A model generated the notes under the pieces. It saw nothing but the letters and a program-made list of their open reading frames with translations. It was not told where the DNA came from and did not search any database. Shown here piece after piece: positions 39,327-60,814 of a DNA stretch of 64,000 nucleotides; within the stretch, counting starts at the first letter, position 1, and each line of letters begins with the position of its first letter. This stretch comes from Haloarcula rubripromontorii (GTDB taxonomy: Archaea > Halobacteriota > Halobacteria > Halobacteriales > Haloarculaceae). A program made the position numbers and the translations under genes. The DNA lies in assembly GCF_001280425.1 (NCBI RefSeq), contig NZ_LIUF01000003.1, positions 62,001 to 126,000 on the forward strand, given 5' to 3'.

Positions 39327-40322
39327 TCAGACCAGCGACCGATAGGACTTCCCGCGACCGTTCCCCTTGTCTTCAATGAGTTCGTATTGTTTCAGACTCC
39401 GTAGATAGCCTCGTCGCGTCGGTCCTGCCTTGGGCGAATTGCTCCGCTCTTCGTAGCGAGCGTGCAACGTTCCGGCGTCGATCTCGCCAGCCTCGTCGAT
39501 AATTCGGAACAGCAGTCGCTGGTGCGTCCCAAGCGTGCGAATCTTCCGCTGTTTGACCTCACGCTGTGCGTCCTCAACGATTGCGTCGACGACCTCTGTC
39601 GTCAGCTCGCGCATTTCGTTGTCCTCAACGTGAACTGCGGCCCGCCGGAGCAATGCGATTCCATCGCGAGCGTCGCCAGCCGCCAGATCGGCGATGTACT
39701 CCACGGCATCATCAGCTACGCGCGACGGGACCAGCCCATGTGCGACACGAGCATCGAGGATGTCAACGAGTTCGGCGTGAGTATATTTGTCCAGTCGGAC
39801 GGTCGCGGCGCTGTGCATCCGCGACGTAGCGGCCTGCCCCAGCGATGTCATCCACTGGTCCTCCTTGATCGTGATGCAGATGAGCGAGACGTTCGGGACC
39901 TCGTAGAGGGCAAGCAGGGTTTCCTCGTCAAGCACGGCGACCTCGTCGAGGACAGCGATGAACTGTTCGTCGCGGTCGCGAAGTCGGTCGATTACGACTG
40001 AGCGCGACGTTCCCTCTCGCCGAAGGTCCGCACCGATCCCGACTTCGCGGGCGAACTCGTGCAAGACTGCGCTCGCGCTGTTGTCGCGCATGCAGTTGAC
40101 GTAGCCCCACCGTAGGTCCAACATCTCGCGTTCGAGCTGCCCGAGAACGAACTTCGCGATGGTGGTCTTGCCGACGCCGCTGGGCCCGAACAGACAGATA
40201 TCCTCAGTTCGGTCCAATGCTGACGGAGCGAGAATCGACGAGAGGTGGTTGATCTGCCCATCGCGATGGTGGAGATCTCTGGGGACGTACTCGGGTCGGA
40301 GCGCTCTGGCGTCCGTGATCAT
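39327..40322 (-). CDS. cdc6: Orc1/Cdc6 replication initiator
   Basis: The start at 40322 gives the usual MITDARALRPEYVPRDLHHR and 331 aa; a longer in-frame start is less typical. The AAA+ module has Walker A FGPSGVGKTTIAKFV (about residue 47) and Walker B FIAVLDEVAVLDEE (about 124), followed by sensor regions and the C-terminal winged helix LGTHQRLLFRIIDEAGEIDA..LKQYELIEDKG. It binds origin repeats and loads MCM. It belongs to the short plasmid or provirus type (chromosomal copies are about 370-420 aa). Flanking repeats on both sides make it the likely origin region of the second element. Confidence 0.93.
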   Translation of the reverse strand: MITDARALRPEYVPRDLHHRDGQINHLSSILAPSALDRTEDICLFGPSGVGKTTIAKFVLGQLEREMLDLRWGYVNCMRDNSASAVLHEFAREVGIGADLRREGTSRSVVIDRLRDRDEQFIAVLDEVAVLDEETLLALYEVPNVSLICITIKEDQWMTSLGQAATSRMHSAATVRLDKYTHAELVDILDARVAHGLVPSRVADDAVEYIADLAAGDARDGIALLRRAAVHVEDNEMRELTTEVVDAIVEDAQREVKQRKIRTLGTHQRLLFRIIDEAGEIDAGTLHARYEERSNSPKAGPTRRGYLRSLKQYELIEDKGNGRGKSYRSLV

Positions 40323-40413
40323 GGGTTGGTAGATGGATACCGGGATTCGATTAAAAGGGCGAGCCATCCGGAGTGAAAGTGAAGCTATGCAGATTTGACC
40401 ATGATTTACCGAA

Positions 40414-44498: not shown

Positions 44499-45095
44499 AT
44501 GCGAATCGAAGCCACCGACGGGAACGAACACAAGGTCTGGCTCACCGACAGCGAGATCGAGGACCTCCGGCGAGCGACGAACAGCCAGCGCGACGACCTT
44601 ATCATCCAGCTGGGCGCGTTCGTCGGCCTGCGCGCCTTCGAAATACCACAGGTCCGCCCCGTCGACGTGAAAGCGACCGACAGCGGACAGTACCGCCTCC
44701 GCGTTCGCGCCGGGAAGGACACATCGGGCAACGGCGGGAAGCCCCGCGACGCCTATCTCCCCGACAGCGTCGAGCGCGACCTCCAGCGCTACCAGAACGA
44801 GCACAGCATCGCCCCGAATGACCCCTTTATCGATTTGAAACAGCCCGGCGTCCGTGCGGTCGTCCGCCGCACCGCTGCCCGAGCTGCCGACGCTACTGGC
44901 GACGCCGACTTCGAGAAGGTGAGCACGCACGATCTCCGCCGCCGGTTCGCCCAGCGCCTCCTGGTCGACGAGCAGATGAACCCCCGCGTGGTGATGGCCG
45001 TCGGCGGCTGGGACTCTTTCGCCGCTATCGAGCCGTACCTGAACGCCCCGAGCGAGGACGTGATCGACGATGCTTTCGAGAACATCGGTCTGTGA
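44499..45095 (+). CDS. Short tyrosine recombinase (XerC/D-like integrase)
   Basis: The 198 residues hold only the catalytic domain: the first Arg in FVGLRAFEIPQVRPVD, a beta-hairpin with YRLRVRAGKDT, STHDLRRRFAQRLL (HxxR), VMAVGGWDSFAAIEPYL with the nucleophilic Tyr. The N-terminal SAM-like domain of classical integrases is missing, as in short integrases of several haloarchaeal proviruses and plasmids. It is unlike the other two recombinases and could mark a third element, possibly the one with the large membrane operon to the right. Confidence 0.85.
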   Translation: MRIEATDGNEHKVWLTDSEIEDLRRATNSQRDDLIIQLGAFVGLRAFEIPQVRPVDVKATDSGQYRLRVRAGKDTSGNGGKPRDAYLPDSVERDLQRYQNEHSIAPNDPFIDLKQPGVRAVVRRTAARAADATGDADFEKVSTHDLRRRFAQRLLVDEQMNPRVVMAVGGWDSFAAIEPYLNAPSEDVIDDAFENIGL

Positions 45096-46671: not shown

Positions 46672-46851
46672 ATGACGAACAACAAGGCTGGCGGTCCGAA
46701 TCCGCCGGACAGCGCGGCCAAGACCGCGCATCGACCATATCGAATCGACTGGCATACCTTCGACGAACGCCGCCGCGAGCGAGCCCGACATGAAGCCGCC
46801 GGTGCGAGCCGCGATCTCCCCGCTAGGGAACTGGTCGGAGGTGGCGCGTGA
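46672..46851 (+). CDS. 59-aa basic protein, first gene of the large operon
   Basis: From the ATG at 46672 the product is MTNNKAGGPNPPDSAAKTAH, then HRPYRIDWHTFDERRRERARHE and ARELVGGGA: hydrophilic and basic, with no membrane segment. It ends with GTGA shared with the next gene. A longer frame upstream (from 46567) adds non-conserved-looking residues. The role is unknown; the basic helix might bind nucleic acid or lipid head groups. Confidence 0.55.
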   Translation: MTNNKAGGPNPPDSAAKTAHRPYRIDWHTFDERRRERARHEAAGASRDLPARELVGGGA

Positions 46852-47390
46852 GCACCCTCGAAGTCGACAACGCTCACCGGTCGGACCTCTCCGTGGTCGG
46901 CTGGCTCGGTGTCGGCCTCTCTGTTTCCGGCGTCGCCCACGCCGGCTGGACGCTCATGACGTGGGCCACCGTCGGTGGCGACGTCGCTGAGGGGCTACTC
47001 GTCGGCACGGCCGCAGTTCTCATCGGGGGCATCATCGCCTACGGCGACGCGACGCCGGAGATGGACGCCATGTGCGACCACTGCGGTGAGCGCATCGTCG
47101 CTCACTCGAGTCGCGACGGCCATGACGAATCCATCGAAGCGTTCTGCACCTCGGATCCGCGGCGTGGCCGCCTCGGGCCAATCTCCGCTGTGCTCCAGCG
47201 CCGAAAAGAGACCTTTCACTACTGTTCTGGGGAGTGCGCTGCAGTCGATGCTGACCGGCGTCGGATGCAACTCCCGTCACAGATTGACACCGAGACACCT
47301 GCTGCCCGACTCGCGGCGACCGACGGCGGCACCGAACAGGCAGACAACCAGGGCGTTCCCCAGCCCGCAAGCGGGGATTCAGACCTATGA
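46848..47390 (+). CDS. Two-helix membrane protein with zinc-finger domain
   Basis: A GTG start overlaps the previous stop. The 180-aa protein has two helices (VVGWLGVGLSVSGVAHAGW and LLVGTAAVLIGGIIAYG, residues about 16-65), then a cytoplasmic-looking domain with MCDHCGERI, AFCTSDP and FHYCSGECAAVD, a four-cysteine zinc site, and a hydrophilic tail. The membrane anchor plus zinc site could connect the membrane complex with nucleic acid or other element proteins. No named family is recognised. Confidence 0.65.
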   Translation: MSTLEVDNAHRSDLSVVGWLGVGLSVSGVAHAGWTLMTWATVGGDVAEGLLVGTAAVLIGGIIAYGDATPEMDAMCDHCGERIVAHSSRDGHDESIEAFCTSDPRRGRLGPISAVLQRRKETFHYCSGECAAVDADRRRMQLPSQIDTETPAARLAATDGGTEQADNQGVPQPASGDSDL

Positions 47391-47974
47391 TAGGACCATT
47401 CTCGACTGACTCGAATCGTTCTCGACCACTCGCACTGCTGCTGGCTGGCCTCATCTGTGCCAGCATTGCCATCGCTGGCGTCGGCGGGGCGGCCGCAGCG
47501 ACGACCGAGACCGCCACGCCGACCGAAACCTCGACATCGAGCACGCTGGCGGACAAGACCGTCGCTGTCGACAACCAGACCCAGCAGGTCTACCTCGAAG
47601 TGACGAACACGAGCGGCCAGAGCATCGACTACACGGTGTATGGTGTCTCGGACGGCATCACAACGAAGGTTGACTCTGGGCAGGTATCGGCAGCCGCGAA
47701 CCAGACCTCAGAACAAACTTTCGCCGTTGACTCGTCGGAGTACGACAGCTACCGCATCGTCGTTGAGGAGGATGACACTGACAGTGACTCCGAATCGGCG
47801 GAGTCCATCGAGATAGGGAAGATCGTCCAGCAGTCGTCGGGCGGCGGTGGCATCTTCGGCGGTGGCGGCGACGGGCTGCTGACGCCGATGAACATCCTGA
47901 TAGCCGCCTTGCTGGCCGCAGCGGCGTTCCTGCTGGGGCTGTTCGATCCGATCAAGCGCAGGATTGCGGGGTGA
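47387..47974 (+). CDS. Secreted/anchored protein with signal peptide and C-terminal helix
   Basis: This 195-aa protein has a signal peptide (PLALLLAGLICASIAIAGVGGAAAA), a Thr-rich linker, a beta-rich ectodomain (QQVYLEVTNTSGQSIDYTV), a glycine-rich hinge GGGGIFGGGGDGL and a membrane helix (NILIAALLAAAAFLLGLF) with a basic stop-transfer end (DPIKRRIAG). This is a type I membrane layout seen for small surface or virion proteins. It overlaps its neighbour by four bases. Confidence 0.7.
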   Translation: MIGPFSTDSNRSRPLALLLAGLICASIAIAGVGGAAAATTETATPTETSTSSTLADKTVAVDNQTQQVYLEVTNTSGQSIDYTVYGVSDGITTKVDSGQVSAAANQTSEQTFAVDSSEYDSYRIVVEEDDTDSDSESAESIEIGKIVQQSSGGGGIFGGGGDGLLTPMNILIAALLAAAAFLLGLFDPIKRRIAG

Positions 47975-47980
47975 GACGGG

Positions 47981-48466
47981 ATGTCATCTGACCCGAGCTT
48001 GGACCTCGGCGACGGCAGCGGGCAGGAGTCCTTGAGTGGTGTGACAAACTTCCTGCAGGATGGCGGAGACGCTGGGAAGGTGCTGTCTGCGTCGATTATC
48101 GGCCTGATAGTGTCACCAGTCGTTGCAGTCATCGACGTGGTGAACGCGGTGGCGAACTTCTTTGCCCAGCCGTTCGACAACGCGGGCGATGCGATTGGGT
48201 CATTGCTGACTGGGCTCTTCGAGGCTCCCGGAAATCTGCTGACTGCGGGGGCAGATATCTCGGAGACAGCGCTCAGATCGGCTCTCGGTGAGACGCTGGC
48301 AGGGACTCTCGCGTTCCCGATCACCGTTGGCATCGTCATGCTTGCGCTGTATCTGGTCGTGCGCTATCTCCGCGAGGACGAGACTGGCGACGTGCTGCCG
48401 GGCCTGCCCATCGACGTGCCAACGGACATCTTCGGCGTCGAAGAGGAGGACACGATAGACGAATGA
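47981..48466 (+). CDS. Membrane protein of the large operon
   Basis: The 161 residues carry two or three hydrophobic stretches (LSASIIGLIVSPVVAVIDVV, AIGSLLTGLFEAPGNLL, FPITVGIVMLALYLVVRYL) and an acidic C-terminus. No motif was recognised. It starts six bases after the preceding gene. A 15-codon frame overlaps its stop and the next start but is probably only a spacer. Confidence 0.6.
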   Translation: MSSDPSLDLGDGSGQESLSGVTNFLQDGGDAGKVLSASIIGLIVSPVVAVIDVVNAVANFFAQPFDNAGDAIGSLLTGLFEAPGNLLTAGADISETALRSALGETLAGTLAFPITVGIVMLALYLVVRYLREDETGDVLPGLPIDVPTDIFGVEEEDTIDE

Positions 48467-48502
48467 CGGCTCGCCAGCCCCACAACTCGGAGGTCACTGT
48501 CG

Positions 48503-48946
48503 ATGGCTGATGACTCGGGGCTGACGAGTTTGATTAATAATGCCGACTCCAACTCGAAGTTCGACGATTACAGAATCGTCGATTCGGCGAACCCGGTCAA
48601 CTGGACCCGCGTCGGCGCGTCGATTCTGCTGTCGACGGTCGCGACGGTGTATATCGGCCTTCGGAAGTACATCGACGAGCTGATCGGCATCCCGGAGCGG
48701 CTCATTGAGGGTGCAACGTCGTTCGTCGGCGAAGTGTCGACCGGCGAGACCCCGACGGGATCGGGCGTGCTGGGTGAGCTGTTCGTCCCGATTCTGCAGT
48801 GGTATCAACAGGATGTCTGGGCCAGCAGCGTCGACCAGTTCGGCATCTGGGGTTACCTCGTTGCGCTGGGGTTCACTCTGTTGACGCTGTTCGTCGTCGT
48901 GCGTGGCCTTCGAGAGGGGGCCCAACGGCTCTCGGGGGGCGAGTGA
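48503..48946 (+). CDS. Membrane protein of the large operon
   Basis: This 147-aa protein has two helices (RVGASILLSTVATVYIGL and GIWGYLVALGFTLLTLFVVV) with an intervening amphipathic segment (IPERLIEGATSFVGEVS) and a basic C-terminus. No family is recognised. It overlaps the next gene by four bases (GTGA), so expression is coupled. Confidence 0.6.
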   Translation: MADDSGLTSLINNADSNSKFDDYRIVDSANPVNWTRVGASILLSTVATVYIGLRKYIDELIGIPERLIEGATSFVGEVSTGETPTGSGVLGELFVPILQWYQQDVWASSVDQFGIWGYLVALGFTLLTLFVVVRGLREGAQRLSGGE

Positions 48947-49407
48947 CAGTGTCACAGTCACCCAACGGCGGCGGTGGCGGCCCTGTCCTCCCGCCGTCGC
49001 TGAAAGCATTCGCAGCCTCTCCGACCGGGTTCATCCTCGGTCTTATCTTGACGCCGTTGCTGAACGGCGTTGAGGAAGTGGTGGAGAACGTTCTCTGGGC
49101 CATCAACTACGTGTTTTTCGGCCATTCACGGTCGTCAACACTCGGGGACCTCGGGCTCGTGGATGTCCCAGCCGTCATCGCGACGACACTCATTGACGCT
49201 GGGTCCGCAATTGGTGAGCCAGTACTCAGCGTCATCGGTTCTGGTGTCCAGTTGCTAATCGACTTTTTCAGCTGGACGGGACCGGCGGGAATGCTTGGCG
49301 CGGCAATTGTCTTTGCTCTCGTTGTGGTCGCTTACTCGACGTACCTGCGGACGGCCATCGAGATTGCGCTGGACTTCATCCCCGGCGGAGGTGCCTTCAT
49401 CAACTAA
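48943..49407 (+). CDS. Membrane protein of the large operon
   Basis: GTG at 48943 overlaps the previous stop; a GTG two codons later is an alternative. The 154-aa product has a glycine-rich start (SQSPNGGGGGPVLPPSLK) and helices such as FILGLILTPLLNGVEEVV, AGMLGAAIVFALVVVAY plus amphipathic segments. It is similar in style, but not clearly in sequence, to the flanking proteins. The end shares TAATG with the next gene. Confidence 0.6.
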   Translation: MTVSQSPNGGGGGPVLPPSLKAFAASPTGFILGLILTPLLNGVEEVVENVLWAINYVFFGHSRSSTLGDLGLVDVPAVIATTLIDAGSAIGEPVLSVIGSGVQLLIDFFSWTGPAGMLGAAIVFALVVVAYSTYLRTAIEIALDFIPGGGAFIN

Positions 49408-49691
49408 TGTCACTCAAAGAGTTCCTCACCCACCCAGCAAGTGCGGCAACGGCAACGGCGACGACACTGTTCGGTGCGTTCCAGCTCGACGTGATTGCGG
49501 TGTTGCTGCAGTGGGGCTGGGCAAACCTCGGGCAGTTGTTCTACGGAGCGACGTTGCTGGTCAGCTCCGCACCAGTCTTGCCGATCACGCAAGCGACGGC
49601 ATCAAAGTTCGTCGCCGGGCTGGCGGCGCTGTTGTTACTCAAACTGCTGCTGAAAGCTCGCGAACAGATTGACAAACGAACGGACGGCTAA
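49407..49691 (+). CDS. Small two-helix membrane protein
   Basis: This 94-aa protein has hydrophobic segments LDVIAVLLQWGWANLGQLFY and FVAGLAALLLLKLLL, followed by a basic tail KAREQIDKRTDG. It begins in the stop of its neighbour (TAATG). The function is unknown; size and layout fit a pore, holin-like or structural membrane component. Confidence 0.6.
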   Translation: MSLKEFLTHPASAATATATTLFGAFQLDVIAVLLQWGWANLGQLFYGATLLVSSAPVLPITQATASKFVAGLAALLLLKLLLKAREQIDKRTDG

Positions 49692-49695
49692 ACTC

Positions 49696-49776
49696 ATGAT
49701 TCGGAACGAACGCAGTAAACGGACGTATCGAACAGGAACGGTGGACAGCGTGGAGGTGGGCCGATGCCAGAAGTGA
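49696..49776 (+). CDS. 26-aa basic frame, doubtful
   Basis: A short frame (MIRNERSKRTYRTGTVDSVE, ending CQK) fills the otherwise empty gap between two operon genes and overlaps the next start by 13 bases. It is strongly basic. It may be a coupling leader rather than a functional protein. Confidence 0.25.
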   Translation: MIRNERSKRTYRTGTVDSVEVGRCQK

Positions 49777-50123
49777 CGACGGCAACGGCGACCGGCTGGG
49801 CTATCATCGGGATGATGTTCTACGTGATCGGCGAGTACACGTCGGTGCTGACAAAGACAGCCTACCCGATCAAGTGGTTCAAAGGCCGCCCGGCCCGGCT
49901 GACGACGGGACTGGTGGGCGGGTTCTTTGGCGGCGTGTATGCCGGCGGATTCCTCTGGAGTGCGGCGTCGTCGTTCATCGGAGCGGGCGCACTGGCCGGC
50001 GGTGGCACGGTATTCCTCGGACTGACGGCTAAAGAGACGCTGGTCGTGTTCCTGGCGGCGCTGGTCGTAGGACTGGCGCTGTACACAGGCGCGGCTGCAG
50101 AGGAGGCGGTGGATGCAGATTAA
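49764..50123 (+). CDS. Three-helix membrane protein
   Basis: The 119 residues include helices at TGWAIIGMMFYVIGEYTSVL, LVGGFFGGVYAGGFLWSAASS and TLVVFLAALVVGLALYTGAA, with a basic loop (KWFKGRPARLT) that should stay in the cytoplasm. No family is recognised. The last codons overlap the start of the 44-aa protein. Confidence 0.6.
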   Translation: MPEVTTATATGWAIIGMMFYVIGEYTSVLTKTAYPIKWFKGRPARLTTGLVGGFFGGVYAGGFLWSAASSFIGAGALAGGGTVFLGLTAKETLVVFLAALVVGLALYTGAAAEEAVDAD

Positions 50124-50247
50124 CATCTCCGGCTGGGGGGCGGTCATGCTGGCCGTGGTCGGGCTCGTCGCCATCGCGATGCTCGTGGCCCCGGAGGCAA
50201 CGACGGACTACGTCAACGGCGTGGCAAGCGCGCTCTCGGGGGGCTAA
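50113..50247 (+). CDS. 44-aa single-helix membrane microprotein
   Basis: This frame starts inside the end of the preceding gene and stops two bases before the next GTG. The product is MQINISGWGAVMLAVVGLVA with the helix continuing through IAMLVAP, then TTDYVNGVASALSGG. A short N-terminus, one helix and a short polar tail are reminiscent of small major membrane proteins or pilin-like subunits, but there is no type III signal site. Placement in the overlap chain supports it. Confidence 0.55.
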   Translation: MQINISGWGAVMLAVVGLVAIAMLVAPEATTDYVNGVASALSGG

Positions 50248-50249
50248 CT

Positions 50250-52052
50250 GTGGGCGGACACGCACTCTCGGGAGGTGATAGGGCCGCCGTCGCCGCGGTT
50301 AGTGTTGCGGTCGTCCTCGTCGCTGTCACCGTGGCGGGCGCGTTCGCGATGCCCGCATCGGCAGCGGTGGCTGACGGACACTATCAGGCGAGCAACGAGA
50401 CGACCGAGGGCGGGAACTGGACCGCGCCGGGGCCGTTCGGCATCGACGAGTTGCGAACCGGCGGCAAACAGATATCGAGTGGCGGGTCCCAAGGTCCGCC
50501 CGAATCAACGCGGATGCTTCCGACCGGCGGAGTCGTCTTGAAGTATCTCCCGTTGAACCCGGCCCAGTCGTCGTACCAGCCGCTGGGTCGGAATCAAGCA
50601 CTCAAAACCGATTACCTGCTGGCATACACTTCCGCATTCGGCGAGAGCGTCGGTGACTACGAGTTCGTCGTGGTGTTCTGGCAGGAACGGAGTACGGAGG
50701 TCAACGGGACACAGCAGACATACGCGGCGAATCAGACAGTCCAGCGGATTGGCTTCGAGGCAGATAACGGCTACTCAGCGTCGAAACTGCAACTGCAGTC
50801 CCATTTCGACAAGCAGTGGCAGGCGACGGCGTGGCTGGAAAAAGACGGCGAGCGTGTCGAGGGGGCACGCTGGCGGTTCGCGCATCAGACGAACCCGTTG
50901 ACGGCGTCTCCCGCGTACCCGACGAACTCGAAGGGGGACCTCTGGCGGTGGGGAACGCTGAACCTGATTATCCCGGCGATTTGCGGCATCATGTTCTCCG
51001 GGGCGTCGGCCAAGCACGTTCTCTCGCGAACGATTGTGGGGACGCTGAAAGGGGTGAGCTACTGGGCTGGCGTAGTGGTGGTGCTAATCGGCATCGCAGC
51101 GATACTTGGTACGTGGCAGACATCGATCATCCTCGCGAACGCGCCCATCGCGGTGGGCATCTTGATCGGGCTGCTGGCACTGCCGGTGATGCTCTCGATT
51201 CGAGACAGCGACCTCTCGAAAGCCGGGTTTTTCCAGCGCAAACTCCGGCAGGGTGCAATCTCGCCCAGTGGTGAGGAAACGGTCGGGACCCGTCGGGTTC
51301 CGAACAAAATCAAGTCCGTGTATCGCCACGGTGAGCAACTCTATGCCCCAGTGTCCGGCCTGCGGCCGATGCTGGCTCGGTACTGGGCAGACCCGGCGAG
51401 GATTCCGACCGAGGACTGGAAGAGCTACGACAGCGGCGAGGGCGACCTCGACCAGCTCTTCGAGATCGACCCAGAGTCCGAGAAGGTTGTTCGGCACAAG
51501 CCAGCGCGACTGAAGTTCGCGCCGTCACTGACGAAAGAGGTTGCCGACGAGGACCTCACGGACCCGCCAGAGGCCGATGGCATCGCAGCGCTACCGGCGG
51601 CCATCTCGGCAACAGTGTCGAACTGGGTGACGCGTCGGAACTGGCGGTTCATCGGCATTGCACTGGGCGGCGGGGCAGCGGTCTATCTGTCAACGGTTGC
51701 CACGCTGGGCTCGTCGATTATCGGGCTCGGGCTGGCGACGTTGCCGGCGTTGATCGAAGGCCACGAAGCCCGGGACGGCACCCTCGAAGTGGACTGGGGA
51801 CCGAGCCACTGGAACGATGTTCAGGCACAGGTCCAGACCGAGCGCCACGAGTACGAAGAGCGCCAGACGTTCGACCAAGTTCTGGAAGCGGTCACCGAGC
51901 TTGAATGGTCTGAACACGAGAAGGGCCAGCAGATTGTCGACCGCGTCCGGACGGAGATTCAGAAGGCGCTGGACGACGAACACGGCGGGAACAGCCCGTC
52001 GACGAACCTCTCGCCGTCGTCGCCACAGCAGGGGGTTGACGCAGATGACTGA
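50250..52052 (+). CDS. 600-aa polytopic membrane protein with ectodomain
   Basis: GTG start. The protein has a signal-like first helix (AAVAAVSVAVVLVAVTVAGA, ending MPASA), an ectodomain (about 40-230) with NxT/S sequons, three helices (LNLIIPAICGIMFSGASA, SYWAGVVVVLIGIAAILG, APIAVGILIGLLALPVML), a 150-residue soluble domain, two more helices (IGIALGGGAAVYLSTVATLG and IIGLGLATLPALI) and a charged C-terminal coil. No recognised family. As the largest polytopic protein of the operon it is the likely core of the membrane machine. Confidence 0.7.
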   Translation: MGGHALSGGDRAAVAAVSVAVVLVAVTVAGAFAMPASAAVADGHYQASNETTEGGNWTAPGPFGIDELRTGGKQISSGGSQGPPESTRMLPTGGVVLKYLPLNPAQSSYQPLGRNQALKTDYLLAYTSAFGESVGDYEFVVVFWQERSTEVNGTQQTYAANQTVQRIGFEADNGYSASKLQLQSHFDKQWQATAWLEKDGERVEGARWRFAHQTNPLTASPAYPTNSKGDLWRWGTLNLIIPAICGIMFSGASAKHVLSRTIVGTLKGVSYWAGVVVVLIGIAAILGTWQTSIILANAPIAVGILIGLLALPVMLSIRDSDLSKAGFFQRKLRQGAISPSGEETVGTRRVPNKIKSVYRHGEQLYAPVSGLRPMLARYWADPARIPTEDWKSYDSGEGDLDQLFEIDPESEKVVRHKPARLKFAPSLTKEVADEDLTDPPEADGIAALPAAISATVSNWVTRRNWRFIGIALGGGAAVYLSTVATLGSSIIGLGLATLPALIEGHEARDGTLEVDWGPSHWNDVQAQVQTERHEYEERQTFDQVLEAVTELEWSEHEKGQQIVDRVRTEIQKALDDEHGGNSPSTNLSPSSPQQGVDADD

Positions 52053-52845
52053 CCCGATGGCCGCGGACGGGCATCACGCGCTCAAATGGCTCGCGAGTGA
52101 TGTCCGGTCGGCTGACCGGTCGTTTGCTGCCGGGCTCGACTCGCTTCGCGCCCAGCAGCGCCACCTGCAGGAGAGTCTTCGCGATGGCTTCCAGACTCGC
52201 ACGGAAGTGCTGGAGTGGTGTCACGCCGTCGACGTGGTCTCGGGTGGCCAGACGCCCGAGACGTGGCATGAGGATCTCGTGAAAGACCGCTGGAAAGTGG
52301 CTTGCCTCATGGCAGATTCGGACGACAGGGCGGCGATTTGCGACCAAGCTCCTCGCGATGATGAGACCGCGGATGCGTTCCGGCGGAAGGTCATTCGGAA
52401 GGTGCTGCTGCCAGCCTTCCAGTCAGCCACTGAACTGCTACGTGAGCGGGTCGCTGAGTTCTCGGATGAAGAGGGCGTCAAAGACGCCGAACGGATTCAG
52501 TACGTCGCTGGGCGGCCGCGGTTGCACCAGCGCGCCGTCGAACAGCACGGGATGCTACGGTCGACGCTGCGGGACCCGCCCCGCGTCGAGTCGGAGGTGA
52601 TGGCGTGGGCTGAGGATATCATCCACATGACCGAGGGGCACGTCCGCAGCGGGTTTATCGAGGACGTGCTGGACCGCCACGGCGACTGGTGGCACTCGCT
52701 GACTCGTGGGCCGTCAGTCCGGCTTGAGTGGCTGCTGGCCGGCGAGGTGTTCCCGGCGATGAACGCCACCCTCTCAGAGTTAGTCACGAACAGCAACGAA
52801 CTCGCGGACGTTGCTGGCCGTCCCAAGGAGGTGCCGCCGGGATAA
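52045..52845 (+). CDS. Soluble helical protein of unknown function
   Basis: From the ATG at 52045 (overlapping the previous stop) the product is 266 aa: LKWLASDVRSADRSFAAGLD, RKVIRKVLLPAFQSATELL, LVTNSNELADVAG. It is soluble, acidic and mainly helical, with no membrane segment or metal site. It sits between the 600-aa membrane protein and GINS/MCM genes, so it may link the membrane and replication modules. The next gene begins in its stop (TAATG). Confidence 0.6.
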   Translation: MTDPMAADGHHALKWLASDVRSADRSFAAGLDSLRAQQRHLQESLRDGFQTRTEVLEWCHAVDVVSGGQTPETWHEDLVKDRWKVACLMADSDDRAAICDQAPRDDETADAFRRKVIRKVLLPAFQSATELLRERVAEFSDEEGVKDAERIQYVAGRPRLHQRAVEQHGMLRSTLRDPPRVESEVMAWAEDIIHMTEGHVRSGFIEDVLDRHGDWWHSLTRGPSVRLEWLLAGEVFPAMNATLSELVTNSNELADVAGRPKEVPPG

Positions 52846-53174
52846 TGGATATCGAGGAAATCCGGGCGGCCCGAGCCCGCGAACAGGATGCGGCGTCACT
52901 CGTGGCACTGGCCGAACCAACGATCTTCGAGCGCGCCCAAGATGCCGTCGACGCTGACGATATCGACACCGACGACGCGGTGGCATTGACGACAGAACTT
53001 GCTGACGAACGCACCGGAAAGCTCCTGAAACTGGCGTCGTTCCGGGCCGCCGGGATGGCGGTCAACTGGGACGGCGTCACCGAGCAAGAACGCGCGCTCG
53101 TCGAGGACCTCGTCGCCCGCATCGAGACGTGGCGCGAATCGGTGATACCGGGCACGGAGGACAGCAATGAGTGA
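52845..53174 (+). CDS. GINS-like replication protein
   Basis: From the ATG at 52845 the product is 109 aa. MDIEEIRAARAREQDAASLV resembles the N-terminus of archaeal Gins51 (MxLxELRxxxxxERxxxxL) and RTGKLLKLASFRAAGM followed by VTEQERALVEDLVARIE matches the conserved helix pair of that family, by my recollection of haloarchaeal GINS. It is shorter, since the C-terminal B-domain is absent. It lies directly before MCM, overlapping it by eight bases; GINS binds and activates MCM in the CMG complex. This family call needs a profile search. Confidence 0.6.
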   Translation: MDIEEIRAARAREQDAASLVALAEPTIFERAQDAVDADDIDTDDAVALTTELADERTGKLLKLASFRAAGMAVNWDGVTEQERALVEDLVARIETWRESVIPGTEDSNE

Positions 53175-55116
53175 TGAGCTGTCCGACCGGGTTAGTCGAT
53201 ACCTCCGCTGGCAGGTGCCGGATAAGGTGGCACTGCTGGCTCAGCGCTATCCAGACGACGCGTCACTGACGCTGGACTGGACGGCTCTGGCTCGGTGGGA
53301 CCCGACGCTGGCAGAGGATATCCTCGATGCGCCCGATTCGATGCTCGACTACGTCGAGGCGGGCATCGCCGATACGCCGCTGCCGGTCGACACGTCGCTG
53401 GGACAGGCCACGCCACGCTTCGAGAACCTGCCAGAGTCGCACACGACCGCCCCCGGGGAGTTCTCACCGAGCGAGCGGCGTGGGCAACTGCTGGCGCTCG
53501 AAGGGCAGGTCGCGAAACGAACACAGGTCCAGCCGCGACTTGTCGAGGCGGCCTTCGAGTGCCAGCGCTGCGGCACCCTCACCCGCATCCCGCTCGAAGC
53601 GGGCCAGTACATCGAACCGTTCGAATGCGTCGGTTGTGAGATGAAGGGTCCGTTCCGCATCAACTCCGACCAGTCCCGGTACGAGGACTACCAGAAACTC
53701 CTGTTGGAGAACCCCAGCAGTGCGGCGCTGGGCGGTGACACGTCGGATGTCATCGCGCACCTGCAGGGCGACCTCGCGGGACACGGGGCCATCGCGAACT
53801 GTCAGGACGTGGTCCTCGTTGGTGAGCTGCAGTTCCGCGGTGGCGGCCCGATCCCCGAGCCACAGGTCGTGGTGAACTCCGTGCAAGCAGCCGGCCAGAC
53901 CTATCAGGACACGGAGTTCACAGCCGACCAGCGCGACCTCTTCGAGCGCTTGCGCGAGCGGCCGGCGTCCTTCGACGTTGGGATCGAGGACCCGTCGACG
54001 GCGGATGTGCTGATGGCCGCCGCAGCGCCGAAGTTCGTCGCGGGCTCGCATCCCCGGGACCGGCAGGTGGTTCGCGGGCTCGTGTTACAGCTGGTCAGCG
54101 CGTCGACGTTCGACGGCCCGGATGGCTCGCACTATCGGGGCGATATCCACGTCCTGTTACCCGGCGACCCGGGGACGGGCAAGTCCGTGCTGGCGAAGTG
54201 GGCCGCGGCGGTCGCGCCACGGTCGGCGTTCGCGAGCGGCGAGCGTGTGTCGGGTCCCGGTCTGACCGCGGCGGCAGTGAAGGACGACTTCTCGGACGGC
54301 GGATTCAGCATTGAGCCCGGCGTGCTGGTCCGAGCCCACGAGGGAATCGCGGTCGTCGACGAGCTGGACAAGGCCGGCGACGACGCCATCGAGAAGATGC
54401 ACTCGGCGCTGGCCGACCAGATACTGCCGCTGTCGCTGGCCGGGCAGTCGATGACGCTGCCGGCGGAGTGTGGCCTGCTGGGCGTGTGCAACCCGCTCGG
54501 CGGTCACTTCGCTGGTGACGAGTCGCTGGTCGACGCGCTCGGGATTGACAGTCCGCTACTGTCCCGGTTTGACCTCATCATGCAGATGCGGTCGAAACAG
54601 GACCGTGACCACGTTCGGGAGCTGGCGGAGTCGATGATTCGAACGTGGTCAGCGTCGTTGAAGGACGCAACTGGGCAGGCGCTCGACGAGGATGACGCTG
54701 AGGCTATCGACCCGATCTTGTCGATGGACGAGTACCGCGCGGTCCTGCTGCGGGCTCGGCAGTTGCATCCGACACCTGCGAACGACGCGGTGATCGAGGC
54801 GCTGGCCGGGTGGTTCGAAGAGCAAAAGATGGCGCTGCCGGAGCGGTATCGCGATGCGCTCGCGAACGCGGACGGGCAGTACCACGGGCCGCCCGTGCCC
54901 GTGACTGCCCGCAAACTCGGGGCCGCTCGCCGGGTTGCACAGGCGAGCGCGCGGGCAAACCTTCGGACTGAGATAACGATGGCCGACGTTGAGGTGGCCA
55001 AAGAGATGGTCAGCCGGTCGCTGGCCGACTTAGATATCCCGATTGTCCACAACGCTGGCCTCGGCGGCGGCGACGTGCAACGGCGCGAGACGACTGATTT
55101 GACTGGAGTGAGCTAA
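53167..55116 (+). CDS. mcm: MCM replicative helicase encoded by the element
   Basis: The 649-aa MCM has an N-terminal domain with zinc site FECQRCGTLT and FECVGCEMKG (about 128-158), Walker A LLPGDPGTGKSVLAKW (about 330), Walker B GIAVVDELDKAG (DELDK instead of DEFDK, about 393), sensor 1 LLGVCNPLGG and the arginine finger SPLLSRFDLIMQM (about 464), then a C-terminal winged-helix region. It unwinds DNA for replication of the element. It is a bit shorter than chromosomal haloarchaeal MCM and contains no intein. It is one of few MCMs placed among membrane-protein genes. Confidence 0.95.
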   Translation: MSDELSDRVSRYLRWQVPDKVALLAQRYPDDASLTLDWTALARWDPTLAEDILDAPDSMLDYVEAGIADTPLPVDTSLGQATPRFENLPESHTTAPGEFSPSERRGQLLALEGQVAKRTQVQPRLVEAAFECQRCGTLTRIPLEAGQYIEPFECVGCEMKGPFRINSDQSRYEDYQKLLLENPSSAALGGDTSDVIAHLQGDLAGHGAIANCQDVVLVGELQFRGGGPIPEPQVVVNSVQAAGQTYQDTEFTADQRDLFERLRERPASFDVGIEDPSTADVLMAAAAPKFVAGSHPRDRQVVRGLVLQLVSASTFDGPDGSHYRGDIHVLLPGDPGTGKSVLAKWAAAVAPRSAFASGERVSGPGLTAAAVKDDFSDGGFSIEPGVLVRAHEGIAVVDELDKAGDDAIEKMHSALADQILPLSLAGQSMTLPAECGLLGVCNPLGGHFAGDESLVDALGIDSPLLSRFDLIMQMRSKQDRDHVRELAESMIRTWSASLKDATGQALDEDDAEAIDPILSMDEYRAVLLRARQLHPTPANDAVIEALAGWFEEQKMALPERYRDALANADGQYHGPPVPVTARKLGAARRVAQASARANLRTEITMADVEVAKEMVSRSLADLDIPIVHNAGLGGGDVQRRETTDLTGVS

Positions 55117-55118
55117 CG

Positions 55119-56666
55119 ATGTCACAGAGAAAACCAAAATCCGAACAGGACGGTTTCACCAAACAGACGAAACAAGGCGCACAGATCGTTTACGATGCTG
55201 AACCGCACGGTAGCTGGGATGATGATGCGGAGATGATACGGACCCGGTTCGATATCCCAGCGTTCGACCCGGAGGCGTTCTACCCACGCGAGGGCGCGGC
55301 GCTGTCGGGCGTGTATCCGGACTTTCTCGTGCATATCGAGAGTGGATCGGACGGCCCGTCGACGGTGAACTCACCGGGGGCGTCACTGACGATGGTCGAA
55401 GCGCCGAAGGGCTCTGGCAAGTCGACGGCGGCCGACCAGTTTGCCACGTACCAGATGGAACACAACGATGAGCGCATCGTCAGGAACGGGCGGCAGAAAA
55501 GCTCGGACTGGCGGCGGATGCGTGACTGGACGACGCTGTGGCTGCCCAGTGGCGTTGACGTTGACGGGCGCTGGATGGAAGCTGTCGACCGCAGCGAGCC
55601 CGATCCCGAAGAACTGTGTCGGGATGTCCGGCACTATTCGGATGTCATCGAACTCGTTGAGCGGCTGCAGGACCACCCGAAAGGAACGTACAACGTGGTG
55701 TTCCCGGACCCGTACTTCCGGAAGTGCGAGGACGCGCTGTCGACGGCGGATGCAACGGTCGAGAAACCGACATTCGTGCCAAAGAACGAGCCGAACCCGA
55801 CGCCGGCATCGCACTGGTGGTTCGGGTTCCTCGCGGCACGCACGTTCGACGGTCTCCGCGTCGACGGTGACGGCGAGCGCAACTGGATGACTGCCCATAT
55901 CGATGAGTTCGGAATGCTCGCGCCAGAGTCAGCGCCGGGCGGCGAATCCGGCCACTGGACGTATGAGTGCATCCAGATTATGGCGGACATCGCGAAGGAA
56001 ATGCGGTCGGCTGGGCTGTCGCTGGTCGGGTACGGCCATCACGAAGAGGACGTTCACAACCACTGGCTCAAAGAGTTCGATTTCTGGGTCGAACTCTCGA
56101 ACCACGACCGCGGGAACCGCACCACCAAGACGGAGGCACCGAAGCCGTTCCGGGATCTCGAACAAGACCAGGACCTGCTGTCGAAGCGGCCGAAAGGGTT
56201 CGGGCTATGCTACACCGGCAGTCGGTTCTCTGAGTTCCAGTTCTCGGATCTCGGTTACCCACACGACACGCCAGAGTTCCAGCTGCGGCTCGGAATCCCG
56301 TCCTCGGTCGACGTGTCCACCAGCGACGACGGTGGCATGATCGTCGAGGACCTCCAGGTGGCGACCGACGACGAGAACCAGCCAACGCTGCTGGAGGAGT
56401 ACCGCGCAGCCAACGGCGCTGTTCACGAGCTGCGTGTTCTCGCACCCGGCGAGGGTATCATCGATATCTCTGGTGACGCGCCGGAGGTAGTCGAAGCGCT
56501 GTCGAGCCCGTATACTGACGGCAAGTTCCCAGAGAAGCCGATCAAAACGATCCAGAACCACTATGATATCATATTCAACCCCGACAGTAGCACGGAGATT
56601 GTGGCGGCGCGCATCCCGAGACGCACTGGGCCCGGTGCGACAACGGAGGTCGTGGCTGATGACTGA
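55119..56666 (+). CDS. HerA/FtsK-type P-loop ATPase
   Basis: This 515-aa ATPase has Walker A VEAPKGSGKSTAADQFATY (about residue 93) and Walker B TAHIDEFGMLAPE (about 260), followed by MRSAGLSLVGYGHHEEDVHN, an Arg-rich sensor stretch (NHDRGNRTTKTE) and a C-terminal domain of unknown type. The layout matches hexameric DNA pumps of the HerA/FtsK superfamily, including packaging ATPases and conjugation coupling proteins. No membrane helix is present, so it would be recruited to the membrane complex. It follows mcm by two bases. Confidence 0.75.
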   Translation: MSQRKPKSEQDGFTKQTKQGAQIVYDAEPHGSWDDDAEMIRTRFDIPAFDPEAFYPREGAALSGVYPDFLVHIESGSDGPSTVNSPGASLTMVEAPKGSGKSTAADQFATYQMEHNDERIVRNGRQKSSDWRRMRDWTTLWLPSGVDVDGRWMEAVDRSEPDPEELCRDVRHYSDVIELVERLQDHPKGTYNVVFPDPYFRKCEDALSTADATVEKPTFVPKNEPNPTPASHWWFGFLAARTFDGLRVDGDGERNWMTAHIDEFGMLAPESAPGGESGHWTYECIQIMADIAKEMRSAGLSLVGYGHHEEDVHNHWLKEFDFWVELSNHDRGNRTTKTEAPKPFRDLEQDQDLLSKRPKGFGLCYTGSRFSEFQFSDLGYPHDTPEFQLRLGIPSSVDVSTSDDGGMIVEDLQVATDDENQPTLLEEYRAANGAVHELRVLAPGEGIIDISGDAPEVVEALSSPYTDGKFPEKPIKTIQNHYDIIFNPDSSTEIVAARIPRRTGPGATTEVVADD

Positions 56667-56871
56667 CCCAGCGAGCCCGCTGGTTGTGACCGATATCGAC
56701 CGCCCTTTTAACTTCACGTCAGCCGGCTGCGGCGGCCGGGTCGGCGGCCGCGGCGGCACCGATCAGCGTGAGCGGAAGATAAGTTCCGCTCGTTACGCGC
56801 GCGTATCTGGAACAGGAACGGAAGGGGGGACCCCCCTGAGCGGTGTTGGAGGTGTGACTGATGGACAGTGA
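56659..56871 (+). CDS. 70-aa glycine/arginine-rich protein
   Basis: ATG overlaps the ATPase stop and the end overlaps the start of the giant protein. The product reads MTDPASPLVVTDIDRPFNFT, then CGGRVGGRGGTDQRERKISS: basic, glycine-rich, perhaps disordered. The coupling on both sides is the best evidence that it is real. Confidence 0.45.
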   Translation: MTDPASPLVVTDIDRPFNFTSAGCGGRVGGRGGTDQRERKISSARYARVSGTGTEGGTPLSGVGGVTDGQ

Positions 56872-59800
56872 CGACCTGCCACTCTCCCGCGAACAACTGT
56901 CGATTGTCGGGATGGCGCTGGCGGTCGTCATCGTCTCGGTGGCCGCGCCGATGCTGTTCGCGCCACAGTCGAACGCACCCGAGGATGCCAACAGTGGCGA
57001 GGTGTACTCGACGCCGACTGACAGCTCCGACAGCCAATCCGAGCCAGCATCGACGCCAGCCGAACCGACCAATCCTATTGACGACCTGAGTACCGCGCCA
57101 CGCGCTCCCGACGAACCACTTGCGTCGGTTCCGGACACGCACGTCGAGAGTAACACGAGCAAGCCATCGCTGTCGGCCTCGACTGGGGCACAGACGCTGC
57201 GGGCTGCAACGACGACCGTCGAGGGCGAGCCGGCGCTGAACCTCACCGACGACCGCACGCACGACGGCCGCTGGGTCGGCGTCTCGACGGACTGGCTCAA
57301 ACAGCAGCATGGCTCGGTGCCAGCTGTCGTCGGCGTGGTTCACGAGTCTGGCGCGGTGTATCAAGAAGAGGTCCACGTCCGGAACGGGCAAGCACAGTTC
57401 TGGGTCGACGGGTTCTCGACGAACACGATTACGTTTGGCGGCACGCTCCGGATCGAGGGCCAGCCAGCGACGACTGGCACGACGCATCTGTATGAAGTGC
57501 GCGACCTCGACAGTGCGACGGACCCGGAAATCACGCTCACTGGACAGGTCAACACCGAGCGCGATACGACACAGGTCGTCGGTGCGACCGACGGCCAGTC
57601 GATTCCGCTCTCAGTGGCTGGCGACAACCTCGAACCGCGCAATCCCGAGGTGACCTTTACTGGCGTCGAACAGACCACGACCGACGCGAGTCTGTTCTCG
57701 ACAACGCTGTCCGACGGTGAGACTGTCGACTACAGTGTCGACGGGAACCAGCCAGCGACGAATGTTTCGACGACGTTCATAGGCAAATCGACATCGAACC
57801 GCCGGACGGTTTCAGCGTCGAACATCGCCAACGGCGATTCGTTCACTTATAACGTCGGCGGCAATACTCTGGCGAACGACGCGTCAGTGACTTTTATCGG
57901 AGAATCGTCGACAAAACCGGCTTCGGATGGGGGCACGCTATCGGCTGGCGGCTCGGACTCGCTTAATCTCAACGGCAACTTAGACCCGGGAAACGAGCAG
58001 CTTACTGTCTCTGGCGGATCCTCATACTCGCAGGGAGATTTTACGTATATAGCAGGTGGGAAGTGGTCCTCTGAGCTGAAACGCGTTCCCAATTCGGCAA
58101 TGACTGAGATCACATTTCATTTGGAGGAACACTCAACTGGTGGCTCATATGAGATATATCTCACTCGTGAGGGAGTGGATGCAGACCACACCGAAGGGAC
58201 GTTAGTGGCGTCTGGAGTGAGTTTCAACGAGCGACACAAAACTGTCAATATTTCGCCATGGGATCCAAAAGGTGCAGATAACGTCACCCTCTCTGTACAT
58301 AAAACCAGCAATCCAGAGGGGGGTGTCAATTTCGAACGGAGCGGAGGCGGGGCACAGTCGTTTGTCTACAACGACGGATATTACTACGATTCGTACATTC
58401 ATATTGATTACAAAACCGGGGCCGATGTGACAATCTCAACGGATAGCGGCACATCTGAGAGCTTTTTCGTAGAGGGTGGTGGATCGCAAACTAAGAGTTT
58501 CCCAGTCGATCTGGGGGATAGTATTTCCGCAAGCGGAGCTGGGAAAATTGACTACTCATTTGATTATTCAGCCCGTACGGGAACTGAAAACCCGGCCATC
58601 GACATTAATGGCGACGGATCTACCGATGCGAGCTACTCTGGAATCCTCCAACCGGGAGAGACAGCGACGGTCAGCGCATCGAACATCCCCAGCGGTTCAC
58701 ACACGGCAACCGCATCACTTGCCGGCGGCCAGACCGACGTTGACCTCTCGTTCACCGAGCGCACGGCCACAAAGAACCCGTCGATAGATATCAACGATGA
58801 CGGAACGGCTGATGCGTCATACGACGGCGTTCTGATGGATGGCGAGACCGTCACGCGGTCGATGCCGGACATCCAGTCCGGGTCACAAACAGCACAGGTA
58901 TCGACCAGCCACAAGGTCGGCGTCGATGCCGGGTCAACCGTGACCACGACGACACAGGACCCGACACTGGATATCGACGGCGACGGGATGGCCGAAGCCG
59001 AGTATCTCGGCAAGCTCACCGAGGGCGAATCGCAGACCGTCCAGATCGACCAGTTCGATGCGTCGGTCAGCAATGCAACCGTCGGCACGCAATCTGGCGC
59101 GGTCGACGTGGATATCGACTACACCGAGCGCACGCTCACTGAGGACGCTGGTGTCATCATCAACGGCCAGCCCGTGCGGATGTCGGGAACGCTCAGCCAA
59201 GACGAGACACAGACGCTCACCGGAAACAAGAGTTGGCTACAGTCTGGCCAGAACAACGTCACTGTCGTCGCTGGCGATGGCGACACTGGGACGGATGCAC
59301 CAGCCCCGACCGTCAAGATCGACTACCAGCACGAGCTGACGACCAAGTGGGCAGTCACGTTCAGCGACGAGGCATTCAGTGAGCGCTACAACATCTCGCG
59401 AACGTACCTCTCCAGCCGCGAGGATGCCACGCTGACGATTCCACACGCACAGAACATCATCTCCCTGCGGACGCTGGAAGTGCGCCTCGACCAGTCTGGT
59501 GGCTGGACGGAGATCCCGGCGTCGGCCCGAACCATGCAGGGGACGGACCTGCAGATCGACATTGCGGCGCTGACCGGCGGGACCGTTCCCGAGGGGACGA
59601 CTGTCGAGATCCGGTCGGTCGGGTCGAAGGTTGATGTCCACAACGGCGCGGTCACGGTCAAGCAGGCCACGTCTGTCGGGACCGATCTCGACTCTCGCGT
59701 GCGGCTGGATAGCTGGGCATCGGATTCCTACATCAGCGTCAGGAATACGTCACAGGCCCAGCAACTCCACTACGGCGTCAACGAGAGCTATTCGGCGGAA

Positions 59801-60814
59801 AGCGACTACGCGAAGCTCTCGGCAGACCACGCCCAGCAGGTGCATTTCCCGGAAGCCACTTCAGGTAGTGAGGTTGGTATCAAGACTGCGCCCGTTCAGC
59901 TCTCACCGACGAACGGAACCATTCGAGCGAGTGTGCCAGAACAGCAGACGAACGCGACCAGCCCGGCGTTCGTGGTCAACCCCGGCCAGCGCTCGGGTGA
60001 GTCGTTCACCGTCGAGTACATCGGCGCGACCGAGGGGACGTGGTACGGCGTCTATGAGGTCGACACGACAAAGCGATTCGACCGCGTCCAAGGCCGCGAA
60101 CCGATGACGGTGCCGAAAGACGATATCGACTCGGTGATTCGGGTCAAGACAGCGCCCGCACCGACCGCGAACCCCGAGGGCGCGTCGACGATCTTCGGCG
60201 CGGCCGATCAAGGGAATCTCGTCGGTCTCATCGCCCTGTTCGGGTCGATTGCGATGCTGTTCGTGATCGGACGGCGACCCGACCAGTCCCGCGACGTGGT
60301 CGACTCGGTCGCGACCGGCGCTGGGGACGCGGCTGGACAGCTCCCGCAGGTCGGCGGCGTCGTTGGCACTGCCGTCGAAAGCGGCCTCGATGCGCTCGGC
60401 GATGCTATTGTGACGCTGGGTGAGAACACGCTGTTGACGAGCGCTGTAGGGGCGGCGACACTCGTGGCAGCCATCCAGTCGGGTTACATCGATATCGGGC
60501 CGGAACTGGGTGCGATGCTGACTGTCGCCGGAATCGCTATCGGGTCTCTGGTAGCCCTGCAGCGGCTCGATGCGTTCACGACCGCTCGATGGATTGCGAT
60601 TGTCGGCATCACTGGCGTCGTGGCACTGCAGGCACTCGGTGAGGGCGACCTGCTGACGGCGCTGGTCAACTCGGATGCGTTCGTGATCGTGCTGGTTATC
60701 GCCGGCTACGCGGTCATCCAGCTGGTCCGCGAGTACCGAGCGAACAACTCGCCGGACGACGACCAGCCACAGGTGAACATCATCGCCAGCCGCGGCGGCG
60801 GGAGTGACGACTGA
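56861..60814 (+). CDS. 1317-aa membrane-anchored surface protein with Ca-loop repeats
   Basis: An N-terminal helix (VGMALAVVIVSVAAPMLF, about 15-34) is followed by a Ser/Thr/Pro-rich linker and a huge ectodomain, then a C-terminal cluster of about five helices from about residue 1116 (LVGLIALFGSIAMLFVIG to VIVLVIAGYAVIQLVREY). The ectodomain holds short beta repeats (PEITLTGQ, PEVTFTGV, ASVTFIGE) and three dockerin-like loops (DINGDGSTDASY about 578, DINDDGTADASY about 644, DIDGDGMAEAEY about 705) expected to bind calcium. Residues about 330-580 are coded by AT-richer DNA. Many NxS/T sequons suggest glycosylation. The protein probably forms the external adhesin or spike of the operon's particle or complex. 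Confidence 0.8.
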   Translation: MDSDDLPLSREQLSIVGMALAVVIVSVAAPMLFAPQSNAPEDANSGEVYSTPTDSSDSQSEPASTPAEPTNPIDDLSTAPRAPDEPLASVPDTHVESNTSKPSLSASTGAQTLRAATTTVEGEPALNLTDDRTHDGRWVGVSTDWLKQQHGSVPAVVGVVHESGAVYQEEVHVRNGQAQFWVDGFSTNTITFGGTLRIEGQPATTGTTHLYEVRDLDSATDPEITLTGQVNTERDTTQVVGATDGQSIPLSVAGDNLEPRNPEVTFTGVEQTTTDASLFSTTLSDGETVDYSVDGNQPATNVSTTFIGKSTSNRRTVSASNIANGDSFTYNVGGNTLANDASVTFIGESSTKPASDGGTLSAGGSDSLNLNGNLDPGNEQLTVSGGSSYSQGDFTYIAGGKWSSELKRVPNSAMTEITFHLEEHSTGGSYEIYLTREGVDADHTEGTLVASGVSFNERHKTVNISPWDPKGADNVTLSVHKTSNPEGGVNFERSGGGAQSFVYNDGYYYDSYIHIDYKTGADVTISTDSGTSESFFVEGGGSQTKSFPVDLGDSISASGAGKIDYSFDYSARTGTENPAIDINGDGSTDASYSGILQPGETATVSASNIPSGSHTATASLAGGQTDVDLSFTERTATKNPSIDINDDGTADASYDGVLMDGETVTRSMPDIQSGSQTAQVSTSHKVGVDAGSTVTTTTQDPTLDIDGDGMAEAEYLGKLTEGESQTVQIDQFDASVSNATVGTQSGAVDVDIDYTERTLTEDAGVIINGQPVRMSGTLSQDETQTLTGNKSWLQSGQNNVTVVAGDGDTGTDAPAPTVKIDYQHELTTKWAVTFSDEAFSERYNISRTYLSSREDATLTIPHAQNIISLRTLEVRLDQSGGWTEIPASARTMQGTDLQIDIAALTGGTVPEGTTVEIRSVGSKVDVHNGAVTVKQATSVGTDLDSRVRLDSWASDSYISVRNTSQAQQLHYGVNESYSAESDYAKLSADHAQQVHFPEATSGSEVGIKTAPVQLSPTNGTIRASVPEQQTNATSPAFVVNPGQRSGESFTVEYIGATEGTWYGVYEVDTTKRFDRVQGREPMTVPKDDIDSVIRVKTAPAPTANPEGASTIFGAADQGNLVGLIALFGSIAMLFVIGRRPDQSRDVVDSVATGAGDAAGQLPQVGGVVGTAVESGLDALGDAIVTLGENTLLTSAVGAATLVAAIQSGYIDIGPELGAMLTVAGIAIGSLVALQRLDAFTTARWIAIVGITGVVALQALGEGDLLTALVNSDAFVIVLVIAGYAVIQLVREYRANNSPDDDQPQVNIIASRGGGSDD

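Follow-up and report, generated by a model that had tools for sequence, protein, structure and literature searches.

A stand-alone Gins51 A-domain gene coupled to an MCM gene on haloarchaeal plasmid-like elements

The window analysed here is a stretch of 64,000 nucleotides from Haloarcula rubripromontorii (contig NZ_LIUF01000003.1). It contains a gene for a 109-residue protein, called P0001, that runs directly into the gene of an MCM helicase. The features of the region are collected in Table 1. An earlier note on this DNA had reported that the two reading frames share eight bases, and both the coordinates and the overlap turn out to be exact. The identical 8-bp overlap is found on pNG300, a 39.5-kb circular plasmid of Haloarcula marismortui. 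On the upstream side, the TAATG at 52843-52847 lets the stop codon of a 266-aa gene share bases with the ATG of the GINS-like gene. The two overlaps mean that the three genes are coupled in series, and the gene of a P-loop ATPase begins 2 bases past the end of the MCM gene.

Table 1. Features in and around the GINS-like/MCM locus, in window positions.
Feature	Position	Strand	Basis
Stand-alone Gins51 A-domain protein (P0001), 109 aa	52845-53174	+	homology searches; orthologue matches Pfam Sld5
Element MCM helicase, 649 aa	53167-55116	+	Pfam MCM, E=1.7e-48; motifs; MCM tree
GINS-like/MCM gene overlap, 8 bp, ATGAGTGA	53167-53174	+	sequence
266-aa protein, no assigned function; stop overlaps GINS-like start	52045-52845	+	
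P-loop ATPase, 515 aa, element-family marker	55119-56666	+	weak PHROG match
Secreted/spike-like protein, 1317 aa, C-terminal hydrophobic segments, conserved in family	56861-60814	+	
Run of membrane-protein genes, starts at 46848, 47387, 47981, 48503, 48949, 49407, 49764, 50250	about 46848-52052	+	
Tyrosine integrase (PF00589), possibly part of the GINS/MCM element	44499-45095	+	
Orc1/Cdc6-like AAA ATPase, element membership unproven	39327-40367	-	27.6% identical to one on pNG300

The earlier note had also placed the two genes on a mobile element and among genes for membrane proteins. Both statements are borne out, as the same block is present on the plasmids pNG300 and pNYT2, and the pair is flanked by a run of membrane-protein genes on one side and by the spike-like protein on the other. 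This run is conserved with pNG300, pNYT2 and three further elements (G003, G179 and G136). The 266-aa gene is conserved across the element family, upstream of either the GINS/MCM pair or the ATPase, and its product has no match in Pfam or PHROG. The ATPase is present in 61 of 391 Halobacteria genomes. The plasmids pNG100, pNG200 and pNG400 of H. marismortui carry the same ATPase with 67-87% identity; within the stretches examined, pNG100 and pNG200 have neither an MCM nor a GINS-like gene. With respect to the pR1SE-like vesicle plasmids (apHPV), the ATPase search matched no plasmid of Halopiger or Haloterrigena, the genera reported to have homologues of pR1SE proteins. Direct repeats and a tRNA-Pro copy were sought around the window element as marks of its ends, and none was convincing.

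The relation of P0001 to Gins51 can be seen already at the level of single sequences. In its own genome, tblastn with P0001 finds the chromosomal Gins51, whose gene adjoins priS, at E=2.4e-8 (41% over residues 27-101), and of 98 related genomes 87 give a match. When hmmsearch is run with an HMM built from seven chromosomal Gins51 A-domains, P0001 is recovered at E=2.7e-15, and five further element proteins have E-values between 2e-13 and 4e-10. Reciprocally, the profile of the element proteins matches 369 of the 391 Halobacteria genomes, where the matches beyond the element copies are single ones that fit the chromosomal Gins51, the next-best match in nearly all haloarchaeal genomes; the haloarchaea searched generally have only one Gins51 per genome. 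The profile-profile comparison that had been proposed as a check was made with hhalign between six element proteins and ten chromosomal A-domains, and it gives 99.1% with E=8.3e-19 over 101 columns (residues 1-101).

The opposite possibility, namely that P0001 is some other helical protein with chance similarity to GINS, draws on several weak results. P0001 itself has no Pfam match, its best NCBIfam hit (Gins23, 13 bits) is not significant, a PDB search with an element-only profile returns noise only, and the predicted fold, described below, is of low confidence and has no GINS match. However, the profile matches are reciprocal, the alignment to chromosomal Gins51 keeps the N-terminal start and the order of the A-domain segments, and the orthologue from G136 matches Pfam Sld5, the GINS helical bundle, along its whole length (positions 5-100 of 102, E=5e-4). 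At 20.6 bits, with a cut-off of 22.3, this orthologue scores above the true Gins51 of its host, at 17.9 bits. In addition, a PDB search with a profile of P0001 and 57 Gins51 A-domains has Gins51 of T. kodakarensis (3anw_A) in first place, at E=0.0018. A chance resemblance is thus an extremely remote prospect. P0001 is by these comparisons a true homologue of haloarchaeal Gins51, with family membership by descent secure, and the Gins51-like features seen in the earlier note can be narrowed to Gins51 specifically on the HMM, hhalign and reciprocal profile evidence.

The element form is 32-43% identical to the chromosomal A-domain, and R56, K59, A64-S65, A68, G77 and E82 are invariant between the two groups. 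Relative to the chromosomal protein, P0001 is without some 18 residues of alpha2 and 5 at the start of alpha3, such that the alpha2-alpha3 hairpin is shorter by about 23 residues. Alpha2, which spans residues 26-47 in the chromosomal form, is a stub, and the set of four A-domain helices is incomplete. The protein terminates about 8 residues past the last helix and has no linker, and the B-domain is missing as well: PF22090 (Gins51_C) matches the genome only at the chromosomal gene. Judged from its alignment, P0001 is A-domain only and departs from the two-domain architecture that defines Gins51. The shortened hairpin may disturb GINS interfaces.

The AF2 model of P0001 has a low confidence (pLDDT 69, pTM 0.49), and Foldseek gives no match below E=1. 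As a control, the chromosomal A-domain was modelled in the same way, giving a pLDDT of 95 with helices at 3-15, 26-47, 55-90 and 102-124. Its best structural match is 3anw_A (E=3e-4, TM 0.81), and the next 36 matches are all GINS subunits in GINS, CMG or replisome entries. The control thus indicates that the approach itself works, and we infer the fold of the shortened P0001 domain from homology.

The MCM of the window has an intact Walker A (GDPGTGKS, 333), Walker B (IAVVDELD, 394), arginine finger (SRFD, 466) and Cys4 zinc site (132), including the intact ATPase motifs expected of a CMG motor. Its C-terminus differs from that of the canonical archaeal MCM, which has a C-terminal winged helix. 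While the chromosomal MCMs extend 86-89 aa beyond the final aligned block (query residue 622-624), only 25 aa follow there in the window MCM. The tail is similarly short, and the winged helix missing, in the family MCMs examined, with or without a GINS-like gene.

The earlier note had raised the prospect that the element has a CMG-type helicase subcomplex of its own. This part is not borne out, considering the missing B-domain, the loss of most of alpha2 and the absence of a DHH/RecJ protein: Cdc45/RecJ was sought in the form of DHH matches, of which the genome has six, none within the element region. Since neither Cdc45/RecJ nor a B-domain is encoded, a complete element-encoded CMG is not supported.

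Extra-chromosomal GINS-like copies were found on seven elements among the 391 Halobacteria genomes: the one in the window, pNG300 (NC_006391; G019), pNYT2 (CP019157; G027), G003, G179, G136 and G268. All seven copies lie just before an MCM gene, either adjoining it or one small ORF away. Six elements have the order 266-aa gene, GINS-like gene, MCM, ATPase and spike, while in G268 the 266-aa gene is followed by ATPase, spike, GINS-like gene, a 50-aa ORF and MCM. The MCM gene is thus located before the ATPase in six cases and after the spike in the seventh, which means that the pair stays together while its position differs. This genomic context is what ties the protein to the helicase, and it agrees with the suggestion of the earlier note that the protein is a dedicated MCM partner. 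In G268 (L211, between 14274 and 14450), the 50-aa ORF has a CxxC pair and overlaps both the GINS-like and the MCM gene by a few bases.

Eight related elements (G288, G148, G177, G312, G162, G187, G060 and a plasmid of Halosegnis marinus) have the same ATPase and a similar MCM, with 33-41% identity to the window MCM over the first 345 residues, and no GINS-like gene near the MCM. This indicates that the GINS-like protein is not essential to that type of MCM. In the MCM tree, the element-family proteins form one group (100/99, or 98/99 without G060) apart from the chromosomal and haloviral MCMs. Six of the GINS-bearing MCMs make up one clade (100/100), and the MCM of G268 groups with that of the GINS-less G162 (99/93). 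This topology would fit a history in which the GINS-like gene was either gained once and lost once or gained twice.

As had been suggested as a check, the GINS-like proteins were also placed against the chromosomal ones in a tree. The six copies that can be compared form a single long-stemmed clade outside chromosomal Gins51 (100/99), G268 being too divergent to place, and the element copies are consequently not recent copies of host genes. The two forms also differ in setting: the haloarchaeal chromosomal Gins51 is encoded beside priS and has a linker and a B-domain, whereas the element form is encoded beside MCM and has its own clade. Between the window and pNG300, the amino acid identity is 85% for the GINS-like protein and 94% for the MCM. 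Pairwise dN/dS values are 0.17-0.51 for the GINS-like gene over six elements and 0.06-0.27 for the MCM, values at which the GINS-like gene is under purifying selection.

These data bear on whether the gene is a captured Gins51 fragment that travels with the operon and plays no part in replication today. Such a relic would agree with the truncation relative to host Gins51 and with the absence of the gene from eight related elements, which either lost it or never acquired it. On the other hand, the reading frame is clean in all seven elements at pairwise identities of 42-94% among the six comparable proteins, dN/dS is well below 1, and the coupling to MCM is conserved. We consider a relic to be highly improbable.

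The arrangement has been mentioned before. In 2014, pNG3052 and pNG3053 of H. marismortui pNG300, which have the same arrangement as the pair in the window, were described as a "C-terminally truncated GINS homolog" located 5' of an outlier MCM (PMC3972481). That description consists of one sentence on one plasmid, with "data not shown", and has no analysis of family, domains or constraint. In the papers searched, we found no mention of the seven-element family, of the losses in alpha2 and of the B-domain, of the selection or of the contrast with sister elements that lack GINS. The 2014 paper also states that GINS genes do not adjoin any of the core haloarchaeal MCM genes, and relays from MacNeill (2010) that gins and mcm are chromosomal neighbours in other archaea. 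In those cases GINS adjoins MCM too, but the genes are those of the cellular GINS.

Our preferred reading, whose chances we judge from sequence comparison to be about even, is that the two genes constitute a helicase cassette of haloarchaeal plasmid-like elements, in which an A-only core-GINS would be dedicated to an MCM without winged helix. The two products would be made together, and the A-only protein would pair via its A-domain, either forming a dimer or taking the upper layer in a tetramer with host Gins51. It would then bind the N-terminal domains of the element MCM ring, and the binding would load or activate the ring. The B-domain surface for Cdc45/RecJ and the polymerase would be supplied by the host or dispensed with. 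Known properties of GINS that are relevant here are that T. kodakarensis Gins51 without the B-domain still forms a stable GINS tetramer and that isolated Gins51 dimerises whether or not B is present (PMC3114041), that the B subdomain of Gins51 binds RecJ/Cdc45 and the polymerase, the A subdomains being part of the core (PMC12035558), and that the homotetrameric Gins51 of Thermoplasma, a Gins51-only archaeon, interacts with MCM (PMC7776575).

A more specific version, which we put forward only tentatively and consider somewhat doubtful, is a minimal element-specific "MG" helicase, where the A-only GINS would activate or load the winged-helix-less MCM without docking of Cdc45 or polymerase. If this version is true, the core function of GINS would be separable from the B-domain in nature, and mobile elements would encode their own helicase activator.

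The main alternatives to the core-GINS reading both involve host Gins51. In one of them, the leading rival, the A-only protein would act as a decoy: it would join host Gins51 through the A-domain but be unable to hold Cdc45 or polymerase, and host replication would be poisoned or diverted to the benefit of the element. A dominant-negative subunit is expected to lack the B-domain in just this way, A-domain dimerisation is independent of B (PMC3114041), and plasmids of these hosts also bear proteins consisting of the MCM N-terminal domain only, four of which have been described and which could be another kind of decoy (PMC3972481). However, a decoy has no need of coupling to MCM, yet 7/7 copies are coupled; the protein is strongly divergent from host Gins51, the alpha2-alpha3 region included; and the sequenced strains maintain the plasmids stably. 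We regard the decoy as unlikely.

In the other alternative, P0001 would be an adaptor that forms mixed tetramers with host Gins51 and in this way brings host Cdc45/RecJ and polymerase to the element MCM, resulting in a hybrid host-element CMG. It would suit the single Gins51 that is usual in the haloarchaeal genomes searched and the lack of a RecJ on the element. Moreover, the Gins51-only tetramer has been modelled with B-domains in its lower layer, which an A-only protein cannot provide (PMC3114041). On this indirect evidence, we regard the proposal as likewise an unlikely one. The readings differ in what P0001 is predicted to bind: the element MCM, host Gins51, or both.

As of 2025, no structural details had been worked out for the contact of archaeal MCM with GINS or RecJ (PMC12035558). 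An A-only GINS with a simplified MCM offers a ready-made minimal system for testing the contact, in haloarchaea as genetically tractable hosts. That plasmid-like elements have a conserved GINS lineage is also relevant to a published statement according to which, as of 2012, viral genomes had yielded no GINS (PMC3307487). IMG/VR, scanned with P0001 and with both the element and the chromosomal profiles, gave no relative, and none was found in a phages collection.

An element-borne MCM as the likely replication protein is a feature shared with the haloviruses BJ1, HSTV-1 and HFTV1, the pT26-2 family and the pR1SE-like plasmids. Unlike the window element, the haloviral and other plasmid MCM loci examined have no GINS-like gene, and the ORF before MCM is unrelated. 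Hidden GINS proteins were sought among the small ORFs that precede MCM in eight haloviruses and ten plasmids, and none of these ORFs matches a Gins51 HMM or a mixed element/Gins51 HMM; many of them resemble coiled-coil or ribbon-helix-helix proteins. In BJ1, HRTV-29, HSTV-1, HATV-3, BLv36, HFTV1 and two Natronosalvus plasmids, most of the MCM genes examined come after an unrelated small ORF of about 130-205 aa, often coiled-coil-like and sometimes with an N-terminus like that of ribbon-helix-helix proteins, and the ORFs of HSTV-1 and HRTV-29 have a similar C-terminal motif in common. These unrelated ORFs may be other MCM partners or loaders. In several other elements of the family, MCM is preceded by an ORF for a short membrane protein.

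Finally, there are some observations on related genes elsewhere. In several haloarchaeal plasmids, the match to MCM is confined to its N-terminal ~200 residues, and the products are possible decoys or loaders. The chromosome record of Haloarcula rara (NZ_CP119785.1) has equally scoring gins51 A-domain matches close to its two ends, probably because the overlap of a circular assembly was left untrimmed. A second full-length Gins51, with A- and B-domain, is found besides the chromosomal copy on the 560-kb plasmid of Salinibaculum sp. KK48 (NZ_CP129994.1; L041:11770-12564), away from MCM and on a long branch.
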